A stretch of DNA of 64,000 bases from an uncultured Gammaproteobacteria bacterium (lineage in GTDB: Bacteria > Pseudomonadota > Gammaproteobacteria > Pseudomonadales > Pseudomonadaceae): assembly GCA_945612235.1 (NCBI GenBank), contig CALZAE010000002.1, positions 28,085 to 92,084 of the forward strand, written 5' to 3'. The position numbers and the translations under genes were made by a program. Shown here piece after piece: positions 38,732-45,459 of the stretch (positions are counted from its first letter, which is position 1; each line of letters opens with the position of its first letter). The notes under the pieces are model-generated. The model made no database searches and was not told where the DNA came from. It saw only the letters and a program-made list of their open reading frames with translations.

Positions 38732-39550
38732 TTATTTAAAGCGGCGCTCAATCCCCTTCTCAACCAAAATCTTGGCTGAAATTTCTTCAACAGAAAAATG
38801 CGTCGTATTAATAAAATTAATATTTTCACGCTTAAACAAGCCTTCCACTTCACGCACTTCAAATTCACACTGCGCGTAACTGGCATAACGACTATTGGGC
38901 TTGCGCTCATTACGAATCGCTGCCAGACGGTCTGCATCAATGGTTAAACCAAAGAGCTTATCTTTATGCTCTTTTAACGAATTGGGCAGTTGTAAGCTTT
39001 CCATATCATCTTCAGTTAACGGATAGTTAGCAGCACGAATACCGTACTGCATCGCCATATACAAACAGGTTGGCGTTTTACCACAGCGCGACACACCCAC
39101 TAAAATAATATCAGCACTGTCATAATGACGCGTGCGCCCACCATCATCGTTATCCAGCGCAAAATGCACCGCTTCAATACGCTCCATATAATTGGCGCTG
39201 TGGGTAATAGAATGTGATTTACCCACCGAATAGGATGAGCGATCATTTAGCTCTTCTTCAAGTGGCGATAAAAAGCTGGAGAAAATATCCACTTTAAAGG
39301 TATTTGCAGTGGATAAAATATCGCGAATTTCAGTATTCACAATAGTATCGAAAACAATGGGACGTATGCCCTCACTTTCCGCAACAGCATTAATTTGCTG
39401 TACCATAGCCTGTGCTTTTTCAACAGTGTCAATATAGGGTCGAGTTAAGCGGCGGAAGTCGATATTATCGAATTGAGCCAATAAACTTTGCCCGAGCGTT
39501 TCGGCAGTAATACCCGTTCCATCAGAAATAAAAAAAGCTGTACGTTTCAT
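38732..39550 (-). CDS. ppsR: PEP synthase regulatory kinase/pyrophosphorylase PpsR
   Basis: PpsR switches PEP synthase off by ADP-dependent phosphorylation of a threonine beside the catalytic histidine, and on by phosphate-dependent removal. The 272 residues show the DUF299 marks [19 protein letters not shown] and the P-loop-like [20 protein letters not shown]. The start is set at MKRTAFF, an ATG three codons inside a TTG-opened frame. It is divergent from its target ppsA, as in many proteobacteria. Confidence 0.95.
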
Positions 39551-39701
39551 AATTGCCAAAAGCCTTAAGTCGTGAACATTTCTCGGTTAGTATAGGCAGG
39601 TTATTGCAATAGATGTTGCCTGGCGACATTGTGACCCATTTTCCCCAAACAAGGCCAATAGATTAAACTGGCCCTTTCAATACAGACGTGGAGAGATCAC
39701 C

Positions 39702-42068
39702 TTGGTTGAATACGTAGTTTCCCTCGATAAGCTCGGTAACCATGATGTTGAGCGTGTAGGGGGCAAAAACGCTTCCCTAGGCGAAATGATCAGTAACCTT
39801 GCCGGCGCCGGCGTTTCAGTACCGGGTGGTTTTGCGACCACCGCCCAAGCCTACCGTGACTTTATTGATGCCAATAATCTAGATGCTCGCATCCATGACC
39901 TACTGGACGCTTTAGATACTGACGACGTCAATGCTTTGGCTAAAGCCGGCTCACAGATTCGCCAATGGATCTTAGAAGCAGATTTCCCAGCGCAACTGGA
40001 TGCCGATATTCGTACTGCTTTTGCGCAGATGGCCAACGGCAATGACAATATGGCTGTTGCCGTGCGCTCCTCTGCCACGGCAGAAGACTTGCCTGACGCA
40101 TCCTTTGCCGGCCAGCAAGAAACCTTCTTAAATATTCGTGGCGTGGATAATGTGATCTACGCTGCCAAAGAAGTGTTTGCCTCACTCTTTAATGACCGTG
40201 CTATTTCTTACCGTGTGCACCAAGGTTTTGACCACCGTAACGTGGCGTTATCTGTCGGTGTACAGCGTATGGTGCGCTCAGAGACAGCCGCAGCTGGTGT
40301 GATGTTCAGTTTGGATACCGAGTCAGGTTTCCGCGATGTGGTATTTATCACTGGTGCTTACGGCTTAGGTGAAACCGTTGTACAAGGCGCGGTCAACCCT
40401 GACGAGTTTTATGTACATAAACAAACGTTAGCCGCTGGTCGTCCAGCGATTTTACGTCGCAACTTGGGCAGTAAAGCGCTGAAAATGATTTACGGCAGCG
40501 ACGCCAGTGCTGGCAAGTCCATTGAAACAGTCGACGTGGACCAAGCCGAGCGCATGCGCTTTTGCCTGACCGATGCTGAAGTATCCAACCTTGCCCAGCA
40601 AGCAGTAATTATTGAGCAACACTACGGCTGCCCCATGGATATCGAGTGGGCGAAAGACGGCGATGATGGCCAGTTGTATATCGTTCAAGCCCGCCCTGAA
40701 ACAGTTAAAAGCCGTAGCAACCTCAATGTCATGGAGCGCTACTTGCTCAAAGAGCAAGGCACTGTTTTAGTTGAAGGTCGTGCTATTGGTCAACGCATCG
40801 GTGCAGGCCGTGTACGCATTATCAATGATGTCTCGGAAATGGATAAAGTCCAGCCAGGCGATGTACTGGTTTCAGATATGACCGACCCTGACTGGGAGCC
40901 GGTGATGAAACGCGCCAGCGCCATTGTCACTAACCGTGGCGGCCGTACCTGTCACGCAGCGATTATCGCCCGCGAACTGGGTATCCCTGCAGTCGTCGGT
41001 TGTGGTAATGCCACCTCTTTGCTGAAAGACGGTCAAGGCGTTACCGTATCCTGTGCGGAAGGTGATACCGGTTATGTGTTTGAAGGTGAGCTGAATTTTG
41101 ATATTCGCACCAACTCAGTGGAAGCGATGCCTGATCTGCCCTTCAAAATAATGATGAACGTGGGTAACCCTGACCGCGCTTTTGATTTTGCGCAATTGCC
41201 CAACGAAGGTGTCGGTTTAGCCCGCCTTGAGTTTATTATTAACCGCATGATTGGCGTGCACCCCAAAGCGCTACTGAACTTTGATAGTCTGCCAAGCGAC
41301 TTACAAGACAGCATCGAAAAGCGCATCGCAGGTTACGCCAGCCCGATTGATTTCTATGTCGACAAACTGGTGGAAGGTGTCAGCACCCTCGCCGCAGCGT
41401 TCTGGCCCAAGAAAGTCATAGTGCGTCTGTCTGACTTTAAGTCTAACGAATACGCCAACCTGATCGGCGGCAAGCTGTATGAGCCGACCGAAGAAAACCC
41501 GATGCTGGGTTTCCGTGGCGCTTCACGCTATATCAGCGAATCATTCCGCGACTGCTTTGAATTAGAGTGCCGCGCGATGAAACGTGTACGTGACGTGATG
41601 GGTTTAACCAACGTTGAGTTGATGGTGCCTTTCGTGCGTACTGTCAATGAAGCGGCACAGGTTGTGAGCTTGCTTGAAGAGTACGGCCTTAAGCGCGGCG
41701 AAAACGGTTTACGCCTGATTATGATGTGCGAGTTACCGTCCAACGCCTTATTAGCAGACGAATTCTTGGAGCACTTTGATGGTTTCTCCATCGGCTCTAA
41801 CGATATGACGCAGCTGACCTTAGGTCTAGACCGTGACTCAGGAGTGATTGCACACTTATTTGACGAGCGTGATCCTGCAGTGAAAAAACTGCTATCGATG
41901 GCCATCCAAGCCTGCAACAAAGCCGGTAAATACATCGGTATTTGTGGCCAAGGCCCATCGGATCACCCTGATCTGGCGCGCTGGTTAATGGAGCAAGGCA
42001 TCGAAAGCGTATCGCTCAACCCTGACTCAGTCTTAGACACTTGGTTCTTCCTCGCGGAAAACAACTAA
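39702..42068 (+). CDS. ppsA: Phosphoenolpyruvate synthase
   Basis: PpsA makes phosphoenolpyruvate, AMP and phosphate from pyruvate and ATP for gluconeogenesis. The 788 residues hold the ATP-grasp domain ([12 protein letters not shown] near 18, [26 protein letters not shown]), the swivelling phosphohistidine motif [14 protein letters not shown] with catalytic H418, and the C-terminal PEP barrel with [28 protein letters not shown] and GICGQGPSD. The start is TTG ([12 protein letters not shown]), with GGAGAGATCACC just upstream, matching Pseudomonas PpsA. The threonine beside H418, the PpsR target, is present. Confidence 0.97.
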
Positions 42069-42316: not shown

Positions 42317-43261
42317 ATGAAACATTTTTACGCCAGTGTGGTGTTTTTTTTATCCCTGATTTTGACTCATGCACAGGCTGCCATTCATCAGCCCTTGCTT
42401 GAAGCCGCTCAATTATCTGAGGCCATCACGACCGAAGCGCAATTGCGTATCATCGATATTCGCAGCCCCGAAGATTTTGCCGCAGGTCATATCCCTCAAG
42501 CATTATCGGCACCTTATGGTCAGTGGCGCGGTCCAGCACACAACCCAGGTCAATTAGCGGATGACGCTTATTTTCAAGACTTAGTGCGCAAGCTGGGTTT
42601 AACCCAAGATCAACCCATAGTGGTGTATTCCAGCGGTGTGGATGAAACCGACTTTGGCGCTGCTGCACGCGTTTACTGGACTTTAAAATACTTAGGTTTT
42701 ACTGACTTAAGCATTCTCAATGGCGGCTTACAACAATGGCAGCAGGCTACCAGCACGCAAGCTACAGCGGTACCAGCCAGCCAAGTGACAGTGCACAGTA
42801 ATCCCAAATTAGTGATTTTTAAAGACGAGTTACTGGATAAAATCACTCAGCAAGATACAACCTATCAGCTGCTTGATGCGCGTCCGCCCATTTTCTACCA
42901 AGGCCAAGTTAAAGCTCCTACGGCCAGCACTGGCGGTACTATTGCTAGCGCGCAAAATATCCCTTTTGGCCAGTGGTTTAATAGCAATGACACGCGCCTG
43001 CGCCCAGTAGCAGAAATCAAACAACTGGTCGCCGAACAAGGTTTAGCGCAGGCTCAAGAAACCGTATCTTTTTGTAATACGGGTCACTGGGCCGCAACCA
43101 ACTGGTTTGTACTGTCAGAACTGGCCGGCTTACAAGATGTACGCCTCTACCCTGCTTCACTGGCTGAGTGGACACAGGCTCAAGAAGGTTTGCCGATGGA
43201 GAATACACCCAGCCGTTTCGAGCAAATCAAATCCAAGCTTTCTCAGTTAGTGAAGAATTAA
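42317..43261 (+). CDS. Exported tandem-rhodanese sulfurtransferase
   Basis: The 314-residue protein has a signal peptide ending THAQAA and two rhodanese domains. In the second, the active-site loop is SFCNTGHWA, with catalytic Cys and the CxTGxxA pattern. In the first, the equivalent loop VVYSSGVDETD has serine where cysteine would be, so it is probably structural. Such enzymes move sulfur from thiosulfate or similar donors to acceptors. It is periplasmic by its signal peptide. It sits two bases before a thiosulfate-type transporter, implying a shared sulfur-uptake job. An AGGAG box lies about ten bases upstream. Confidence 0.88.
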   Translation: MKHFYASVVFFLSLILTHAQAAIHQPLLEAAQLSEAITTEAQLRIIDIRSPEDFAAGHIPQALSAPYGQWRGPAHNPGQLADDAYFQDLVRKLGLTQDQPIVVYSSGVDETDFGAAARVYWTLKYLGFTDLSILNGGLQQWQQATSTQATAVPASQVTVHSNPKLVIFKDELLDKITQQDTTYQLLDARPPIFYQGQVKAPTASTGGTIASAQNIPFGQWFNSNDTRLRPVAEIKQLVAEQGLAQAQETVSFCNTGHWAATNWFVLSELAGLQDVRLYPASLAEWTQAQEGLPMENTPSRFEQIKSKLSQLVKN

Positions 43262-43262
43262 T

Positions 43263-44354
43263 ATGAACAATCGTTTAGCGCTCACTGTCGTTTTCGCAGT
43301 GTTTACCGCATTTTTATTTTGGTTTGTCTCGGTCCGCCAAAGTCTATTATTCTTAGTAGGTATTGGCTTAGGTACTGTGTTGGCCGGCGCCCGCTTTGGC
43401 TTCACCACCGGCTGGCGCAATCTAATTGAAAAGCGTGATGCCAGTGGTGTCTTTGCACAAATCTTACTACTGGCCATTGCCGCTGCCTTCTCTATGCCGT
43501 TATTGGCCAGCTTTCCAACCGAACTTAGCGCCGCATTAGGCCCACCGAGCATCAGCTTATTGATTGGTGCTTTAGTGTTTGGTGGCGCGATGCAGATTGC
43601 TGATGGTTGTGGTTCAGGCACGTTGTATAAAGCAGGTCTTGGCATTCCATTAAATATGGCAATTTTACCCGTGTTTGCGCTGGGTAGTTTCTTAGGCTCA
43701 GCCCACTTAGGCTGGTGGTTGGATTTAGGGCATTTAGAGCCTGTGGGCCTAGTCGATGAAGTTGGTTTAGGTGGTGCACTGGGTTTAACTTACCTTGGTT
43801 TACTACTGGTCGGCCTCGCCGCTTGGTGGTGGTCAAAAACCAATACAACGGTGCACAGCCTGTTCAATAAAAAACTGCTAGTGGGCGCTGTGGCCATTGC
43901 TATTCTCGCTGTACTGATTTTAGTGATCGCCGGCAAACCTTGGGGTGTGGTGTATGGCTTTGGTTTGTGGGCGGCAAAAATTGCGCAAGCTGGCAACTTA
44001 TTTGACCCCAGTACCAATGCGTTTTGGAGTCAGCCAGTCAATGCCACGGCACTTGAGCAGTCGGTCTTTTTAGACTTAACCTCGATTACCAATATCGGTA
44101 TTTTAGCCGGTGCACTGTGGATTTTCTCACGCAACAAATCAGGCACCGCGAAAAAACTCAACACCCAGCAATGGATTGTCGGCATTCTTGCAGGCTTTTT
44201 ATTGGGCTACAGTTCACGCTTAGCTTTTGGCTGTAATGTGGGCGCAATGGTCAGTGGTATTTCCACTGGCAGTATTCATGGCTGGATTTGGGTGGTGATG
44301 GCCTTTTTAGGCTCACTGCTGGGTGTCCGTGTACGCCGCTATTTTGGATATTAA
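43263..44354 (+). CDS. YeeE/YedE-family (TsuA-like) thiosulfate/sulfur transporter
   Basis: The 363-residue protein is very hydrophobic, with about nine to ten helices in two repeats. Each repeat carries a conserved cysteine loop: DGCGSGTLYKAG near 118 and AFGCNVGAMVSGISTGS near 322. In TsuA (YeeE) these cysteines line the path for thiosulfate. The partner gene upstream is a periplasmic rhodanese and a micro-protein follows, consistent with uptake of thiosulfate or a related sulfur compound. Specificity is inferred from family only. Confidence 0.88.
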   Translation: MNNRLALTVVFAVFTAFLFWFVSVRQSLLFLVGIGLGTVLAGARFGFTTGWRNLIEKRDASGVFAQILLLAIAAAFSMPLLASFPTELSAALGPPSISLLIGALVFGGAMQIADGCGSGTLYKAGLGIPLNMAILPVFALGSFLGSAHLGWWLDLGHLEPVGLVDEVGLGGALGLTYLGLLLVGLAAWWWSKTNTTVHSLFNKKLLVGAVAIAILAVLILVIAGKPWGVVYGFGLWAAKIAQAGNLFDPSTNAFWSQPVNATALEQSVFLDLTSITNIGILAGALWIFSRNKSGTAKKLNTQQWIVGILAGFLLGYSSRLAFGCNVGAMVSGISTGSIHGWIWVVMAFLGSLLGVRVRRYFGY

Positions 44355-44355
44355 G

Positions 44356-44514
44356 ATGAATAAATTACGTATTGTGGTGTTTTGGACACTGTTAATCGGC
44401 TTCTTTGTCTGGGATTGGCACACAGCGCAGCCAGTCAACTTACGCCTAGAAGCACCAGTGATTGCCATCGGCTCCGGTCAAGCGCCCTCCGGCGGGCATT
44501 GCGCTACTTTCTAG
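44356..44514 (+). CDS. Cysteine-containing membrane micro-protein coupled to the YeeE/YedE transporter
   Basis: The ATG lies one base after the transporter stop. The 52-residue product has one N-terminal hydrophobic helix (about 4-20), a short periplasmic-looking segment and a glycine-rich tail with a single cysteine four residues from the end (SGGHCATF). A terminator follows directly, so it is the last gene of the rhodanese-transporter operon. I do not recognise the family. The tail cysteine could carry sulfur to or from the transporter or rhodanese, but that is speculation. Confidence 0.65.
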   Translation: MNKLRIVVFWTLLIGFFVWDWHTAQPVNLRLEAPVIAIGSGQAPSGGHCATF

Positions 44515-44537: not shown

Positions 44538-44577
44538 AAAATAGCCGAACTCAAAATCAATTGAGTTCGGCTATTTT
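44538..44577. terminator. Bidirectional rho-independent terminator
   Basis: AAAATAGCCGAACTCAA and TTGAGTTCGGCTATTTT form a perfect 17-bp stem with a 6-base loop. A-runs on the left and T on the right serve both the plus-strand sulfur operon and the minus-strand methyltransferase. Confidence 0.95.
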
Positions 44578-44604: not shown

Positions 44605-45342
44605 TTAAGCCTCTAAACGAATACCTGCCGAGACTTGCTTACTGTCTACAGCCGGCAACAACACACCCTCTTGATAATCTGACATAAAGACTTCAGCAGC
44701 TTGCGTGACTGCGGTTTGAATCACTAAACGCACACGACTGCCCAAAACTTTAGCTTCGACCAACTCCACTTGCTCGCCATCAATCCACGCCTGGCCACTG
44801 AGCATTTGGAAGGTTTGATCCAGTACCACACGGTACACTTTCCCCTCATCACTGAGCCATTCCCACGTGCCTTGTAAAGGCGCCGGGACCACCCACTTAT
44901 ATAAATACACTCCACCCATCGCGCGCTTGGCATCAGGCTGCCAACGCCCCATATTAAAGGCATGGGCAATAATACGGGTACCGGGTTTGAGCTCAGTTAA
45001 AATACGGGCTTTAAGCTTCACGTTCAGAGACGGCAACAAATATAGAGTCAGAACTGTGGCTTCACTGAAATCAACCGTAAGTAAATCTTCCTGTAAAAAC
45101 TCAACTCGATCCTCAACTCCGATGGTGGCAGCTAAAGCATTGGCTTCAGCAATACGACGTGGATCCATATCAACACCAATGGCACGCGCACCACGCTCCA
45201 TTGCTGCAGCAACCACGATACGACCATCACCACAACCAAGGTCATAGAGCACATCATCTTTAGTCACCGCCGCCATTTTCAGCATGGCCTCAACGACTAA
45301 CTCATCGGTTGGCACAAAGATGACATCAAGTTCAGCATCCAC
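44605..45342 (-). CDS. Class I SAM-dependent methyltransferase
   Basis: The protein has the SAM-binding motif I DLGCGDGRIVVAAA, an acidic post-I residue in AIGVDMDPRR, VEFLQEDLL and a motif IV-like ATVLTLYLLPSLN. C-terminal strands add about 100 residues of unknown role. No ATG is available. The GTG at 45342 has AAGGA eight bases upstream and gives VDAELDVIFVPT, close to the usual family start, so it is preferred; a GTG at 45390 is the longer alternative. About 245 residues. The substrate is unknown. It resembles lysine/protein methyltransferase-like proteins beginning 'LDVPYVPT'. Confidence 0.8.
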   Translation of the reverse strand: MDAELDVIFVPTDELVVEAMLKMAAVTKDDVLYDLGCGDGRIVVAAAMERGARAIGVDMDPRRIAEANALAATIGVEDRVEFLQEDLLTVDFSEATVLTLYLLPSLNVKLKARILTELKPGTRIIAHAFNMGRWQPDAKRAMGGVYLYKWVVPAPLQGTWEWLSDEGKVYRVVLDQTFQMLSGQAWIDGEQVELVEAKVLGSRVRLVIQTAVTQAAEVFMSDYQEGVLLPAVDSKQVSAGIRLEA

Positions 45343-45459
45343 CTTGGTAAATCCTTCTTCAAAAATCAATTCAGTAAACAATAAAAACACCTAGCAGGTT
45401 AACAAAGCAATCAGCGTCCACTCATCATAAGATTGATGACCCTTAATGCGCAGATCGTG

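Follow-up and report, generated by a model that had tools for sequence, protein, structure and literature searches.

Does the 52-codon open reading frame directly behind a YeeE/YedE-family transporter gene encode a genuine component of that transporter and, if so, what is the role of its single cysteine? This question is posed by an operon located in the window, that is, the whole 64,000-nucleotide stretch of gammaproteobacterial DNA analyzed here. The first-pass annotation of the same DNA suggested an accessory subunit or a sulfur relay between a thiosulfate-type transporter and a periplasmic rhodanese, an idea that the present analysis supports in part.

Organization of the operon

In the window, the rhodanese gene, the YeeE/YedE gene and the small open reading frame form a compact operon on the plus strand that is closed by a terminator (Table 1). 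A single base separates the rhodanese stop codon from the ATG of YeeE, and the same is true of the YeeE TAA (ending at 44354) and the ATG of the small gene (at 44356). The terminator stretch folds at −29.3 kcal/mol compared to −9.0 ± 2.5 kcal/mol in shuffled sequences (z = −8.2) and stands between the operon and the convergent methyltransferase gene. Upstream of the operon, a kinase/pyrophosphorylase-like gene (38732–39559, minus strand) is divergent from a phosphoenolpyruvate synthase-like gene (39702–42068, plus strand), a pairing that, judged by eye, is ordinary.

Table 1 Genes and terminator of the operon and the convergent gene in the window.
Feature	Coordinates	Strand	Remarks
Two-domain rhodanese gene	42317..43261	+	314 aa; PF00581
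YeeE/YedE-family membrane transporter gene	43263..44354	+	363 aa; PF04143
Small one-helix protein gene	44356..44514	+	52 codons
Intrinsic terminator closing the operon	44538..44577	+	17-pair stem, U-rich tail
Methyltransferase gene, convergent to the operon	44605..45390	−	beyond the terminator

The transporter and the rhodanese

The transporter matches PF04143 with 145.6 bits (cut-off 27) and thus belongs to the YeeE/YedE family. Its scores against the TsuA models NF052577 and NF041049 are 34.7 bits (equivalog cut-off 400) and 25 bits (cut-off 645), respectively. With scores this far under the cut-offs, the name 'thiosulfate transporter' is a guess at the substrate, and the 'thiosulfate-type' label given at first pass is not established. 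When the fusion model of the Thiopseudomonas relative (see below) was compared to solved structures with Foldseek, the best match was the YeeE of Spirochaeta thermophila (6LEO, E = 1.3e-9), and 8K1R was matched as well. In the S. thermophila YeeE-YeeD system, sulfur passes from outside to inside along a cysteine relay, C293-C91-C22-YeeD C17, in which YeeD provides the fourth, cytoplasmic cysteine (PMC11073785). Alignment to 6LEO equates Cys324 of the window YeeE with C293 and Cys116 with C91, and places Gly46 at the position of C22, such that the window protein does not have all three relay cysteines of the TsuA type, the third, cytoplasmic one being replaced.

The rhodanese matches PF00581 in two stretches (96.1 bits), in keeping with a two-domain protein, and resembles solved rhodaneses and mercaptopyruvate sulfurtransferases. 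Its only catalytic cysteine sits in the second domain, in the loop CNTGHWA, and its N-terminus, MKHFYASVVFFLSLILTHAQAA, is hydrophobic and, by eye, signal-like. The loop, in the form CNTGH[WL]A, is present in the rhodanese of 55 relatives and in all rhodanese-bearing operons of the census described below.

The small protein: a predicted helix and a cysteine-bearing tail

The small gene encodes MNKLRIVVFWTLLIGFFVWDWHTAQPVNLRLEAPVIAIGSGQAPSGGHCATF, a product with one hydrophobic stretch. In agreement with the initial description of one helix and a single cysteine near the C-terminus, the sole cysteine is residue 49 of 52, within the terminal GGHCATF, and it is conserved in 62 of 62 relatives, in 56 of which it is the only cysteine. 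Among the first 16 sequences aligned, F9, W10, D20, R30, E32, A37, G39 to A43, G46, H48 and C49 are invariant, and the common pattern is a helix ending in Asp followed by a tail with GSGQAxxGxHC. The flanks of the helix carry charges of +1.6 on the N-terminal side and −0.5 on the C-terminal side, and 94% of the relatives are inside-positive; the small protein is predicted to be oriented N-in, C-out, with Cys49 on the periplasmic side in the tail GSGQAPSGGHCATF.

For AlphaFold modelling, translation was continued across the YeeE stop codon into the small gene in two relatives that have both genes in one frame; this fusion is a modelling device only and implies no claim of actual stop codon read-through. 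In both models, which come from two genera, the YeeE helices are joined by one extra helix (pLDDT ~78–89) that is followed by a disordered tail (pLDDT ~30–50), and the small protein is accordingly modelled as a putative helix with a flexible Gly-rich tail. Homology of the tail protein to any solved structure was rejected, the best match being only a chance one to a cytochrome b helix (E = 0.21).

None of the Pfam and NCBIfam profiles matches the small protein. In particular, there is no match to the TusA family (PF01206) and no CPxP motif, and a single membrane helix is predicted instead of the soluble TusA fold. SoxY is a soluble domain protein that ends in GGCGG and presents its cysteine in the periplasm on a flexible C-terminal arm rich in Gly. 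In this respect the two proteins are alike in idea, but no likeness of sequence or fold was seen: the small protein does not match PF13501, and its tail, SGGHCATF, lacks the GGCGG end. A SoxY search of the organism's own genome, which is 82% complete, yielded no match, with the control also silent.

A conserved gene family coupled to YeeE

In a family-level sample of 199 genomes, relatives of the small protein were detected in three genera at 43–98% identity, each directly 3' of a YeeE gene; four weaker matches in this sample (L021–L024) were rejected as unrelated. A profile search of approximately 85,000 species genomes identified 62 named loci in alpha-, beta- and gammaproteobacteria, with hosts including Denitrificimonas, Marinospirillum, Thiopseudomonas, Pseudomonas flexibilis, Candidimonas, Paenalcaligenes, Thauera, Tepidiphilus, Massilia, Rhodovulum, Roseivivax, Salinarimonas and others. 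YeeE is immediately upstream of the small gene in all 62 loci, so that the proposal survives one of its stated refutation tests, a lack of homologs beside other YeeE/YedE genes. The assignment of the micro-protein to the operon, proposed from its one-base distance to YeeE and the terminator behind it, is likewise borne out by the recurrence of this layout in every relative. The suggested association with a rhodanese also holds, given that a rhodanese gene precedes YeeE in 56 of the 56 window-type loci whose contig extends far enough. The distance from the YeeE stop codon to the start of the small gene ranges from −11 to +55 nucleotides, with an ATGA overlap in many alphaproteobacteria. No other conserved neighbours were found around these loci, which suggests that the three genes constitute a self-contained module.

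The median dN/dS of the small gene is 0.05 (within genus), 0.11, 0.26, 0.16 and 0.26 in five groups of relatives, and relatives with 36–98% protein identity retain the reading frame and the start across three proteobacterial classes. The Thauera copies are preceded by good ribosome-binding sites; the window copy shows no obvious consensus Shine-Dalgarno sequence. A tblastn search of plasmids with the small protein returned eight weak matches, and the two that were opened (H2 and H5) are genuine copies of the operon, with the third gene annotated as 'hypothetical protein'. RefSeq calls the small gene as a coding sequence under this name (WP_317376847.1 and WP_168201363.1). Judged by its conservation, the small gene is thus genuine and belongs to a family not described before; the first-pass annotation had named it a candidate undescribed component.

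The family from the standpoint of YeeE

In a separate census, YeeE homologs were collected by YeeE alone and their surroundings were then read, such that the presence of the small gene was not a criterion; the limit of the clade was set by the YeeE tree (SH-aLRT support 84), and additional type-A rows of the tree that had been found via the small gene were excluded from the Fisher test. In this unbiased set, a one-helix small protein is encoded behind YeeE in 25 of 25 members of the clade and in 0 of 26 homologs outside it (p = 1e-13), and in 24 of the 25 the small protein has a cysteine-containing tail. Taken together, the existence of the family, its strict gene coupling, purifying selection, the invariant cysteine and a single origin with a YeeE clade are established at the level of sequence comparison.

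The tails fall into several classes. Class A, the window type, has GSGQAxSGGHC, and class A-prime has GSGAxxxGGFC, with Phe in place of the class A His. Class B (...ACAPCGAPC...) comprises the rhodanese-YeeE operons L114, L130, L139, L147, L158, L161 and L162 (CAPCGAPCPS), with a variant in L139 (CAPCGQAC, with a GTG start). In class C, SPCGL or SPCSL is repeated (L112, L140–L145, L149, L150 and L159), and the class C small gene of L119 encodes 205 aa with NPCAANPCG repeats. The Asp directly after the helix is retained in all classes, often as DH or DT. Rhodaneses with the CNTGHWA loop adjoin classes A, A-prime and B as well as L119, whereas the SPCGL class is without an adjacent rhodanese, which indicates that the superfamily as a whole does not need one. 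The only cysteine-free member of the clade, L146, has the helix and the DH signature behind YeeE; a sequencing error and a different role are candidate causes of this exception.

Several features of YeeE itself were compared in this set. A possible covariation of YeeE residues 114 and 123 with GGFC tails was dismissed as phylogenetic because alphaproteobacterial operons with GGHC tails have these residues too. At residue 117 (window numbering), directly after the second relay cysteine, virtually every clade member with a small protein has Gly (CGSG), and Ala or Thr (CASG or CTSG) predominates outside the clade; this Gly may be simply a clade marker. The loss of C22 was also considered as the specific reason for the tail and was rejected: this loss is common to YeeE relatives that have no small protein, which argues against specific compensation by the tail, and C22 is the cytoplasmic, not a periplasmic, relay cysteine.

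A possible sulfur relay and its alternatives

Operon membership, coupling to YeeE in all 62 relatives, the constant rhodanese and an invariant cysteine that is predicted to be periplasmic make the small protein a strong candidate for an accessory subunit or a sulfur relay. Specifically, we moderately favor a dedicated subunit with a cysteine in the periplasm that takes over sulfane sulfur from the rhodanese and brings it to Cys324 and Cys116 of YeeE. Under this scheme, the small protein would be anchored by its helix beside YeeE, with the N-terminus in the cytoplasm and the C-terminus in the periplasm; the rhodanese, presumably periplasmic, would load its active-site cysteine with sulfane sulfur, taken from thiosulfate or a similar donor, and hand this sulfur on to Cys49, where it would form a persulfide (or thiosulfonate); and the tail would then swing to the mouth of YeeE on the periplasmic side, delivering the sulfur to Cys324 and onward to Cys116. 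Here, we infer the contact between the small protein and YeeE, the sulfur transfer and the substrate. Cys49 would act as a periplasmic 'zeroth' cysteine, a mirror image of the cytoplasmic 'fourth' one of TsuB/YeeD in Escherichia coli and S. thermophila. Extended to the whole YeeE/YedE clade, the proposal is more tentative, falling somewhat short of an even chance: all members would use a one-helix periplasmic thiol subunit for protein-bound handover, from a rhodanese persulfide via the tethered cysteine tail to the YeeE relay, rather than entry of free thiosulfate, and the single-cysteine, CAPCGAPC and NPC/SPCGL-repeat tails would be variations of one device.

Among the observations that count against a relay are the cysteine-free L146 and the absence of an adjacent rhodanese in the SPCGL class. 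The former suits the main rival, a structural or regulatory micro-subunit whose helix stabilizes or gates YeeE, with the cysteine acting as a redox switch or disulfide anchor, which we consider rather unlikely. The small size, the conserved helix with its FW...D signature and the strict coupling to YeeE are all compatible with such a role, as is a cysteine-free 56-aa helix protein encoded beside SoxT1A in Hyphomicrobium (PMC11582611), which implies that a small helix protein may neighbour a YeeE-type gene without being a sulfur carrier. However, conservation is strongest in the tail, not in the helix, with GSGQA, G46, H48 and C49 all invariant, and the tails diverge to multi-cysteine forms while a cysteine persists in all but one of the census members, which would be expected if the protein functions through its thiol.

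It is less probable still that the tail cysteine and histidine bind a metal (Cu, Zn or Hg) or a chalcogen (selenium or tellurium) and that detoxification or import of that element is the function of the module. The HC in the tail and the resemblance of CAPCGAPC and the NPC/SPCGL repeats to metal ligands are suggestive, and the rhodanese weakly and partially matches ExtH, a selenite/tellurite model (71 of 200 bits), as does YeeE the selenium model YedE/FdhT (81 of 350 bits). Both scores, however, are far under the cut-offs, the window class has a single cysteine, the GGFC class has Phe instead of His, and the module has no conserved neighbours related to metals or selenium. Finally, the short length of the open reading frame and the lack of an obvious Shine-Dalgarno sequence in the window copy could point to an untranslated frame, conserved by chance or as part of a conserved mRNA end; this explanation was rejected, and its probability appears negligible, given dN/dS well below 1 in five groups and the complete synteny, along with the frame and start kept across three classes, the Thauera ribosome-binding sites and the RefSeq calls.

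Comparison with known systems

The relay reading can be compared to the closest known YeeE-type importers. The TsuA-TsuB (YeeE-YeeD) system of E. coli and S. thermophila (6LEO, 8K1R) shares with the window module the YeeE fold, the cysteine relay and a small cysteine-bearing partner encoded alongside. However, TsuB is a soluble cytoplasmic protein of the TusA fold with CPxP, whereas the partner in the window is a membrane protein of one helix whose cysteine tail is predicted to lie in the periplasm, and the window module differs further in having Gly at C22 and an added, putatively periplasmic rhodanese. SoxT1A and SoxT1B of Hyphomicrobium are likewise YeeE-like importers fed from the periplasm with a small helix protein nearby (PMC11582611), but SoxT keeps three cysteines, and its periplasmic DsbA/SoxS partner is thioredoxin-like as opposed to the rhodanese here. 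The nearby protein, Hden_0678 (56 aa, one helix, no cysteine), is one for which, according to the authors, functional assignment is not currently possible, and the delivery of sulfur from periplasmic carriers to SoxT/YeeE is described as poorly understood (PMC11582611). The zero-valent sulfur importers PmpA and PmpB (YedE1 and YedE2), which belong to the same family, have only two relay cysteines, both of which are retained in the window YeeE; in contrast to the window transporter, PmpA/PmpB is a half-size two-gene transporter, and no small tail protein is described for it (PMC10812762).

In the full-text literature, with subscription papers and preprints mostly outside the coverage, no description of the small protein was found, and hence it appears to be a new component of a known kind of YeeE importer. 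The three-gene system of rhodanese, YeeE and cysteine-tail protein makes the poorly understood entry of sulfane sulfur experimentally tractable, and it names a family that annotation leaves as 'hypothetical protein' or could miss owing to its size. The YeeE clade provides a sequence rule for predicting which importers use a cysteine-tail protein.

Among the YeeE proteins of a neighboring clade that have no small protein (L113, L115–L118, L120, L125 and L129), we observed a terminal cysteine (SGC, NGC, TGC, TAC or TFC), presumably on the cytoplasmic side; this residue may be the transporter's own equivalent of the 'fourth cysteine' of YeeD. In addition, the organism's own genome contains a second YeeE/YedE-type match, on another contig (C64, 5197–6739), with a TusA-family gene directly after it, a separate pair of the YedE-TusA type.
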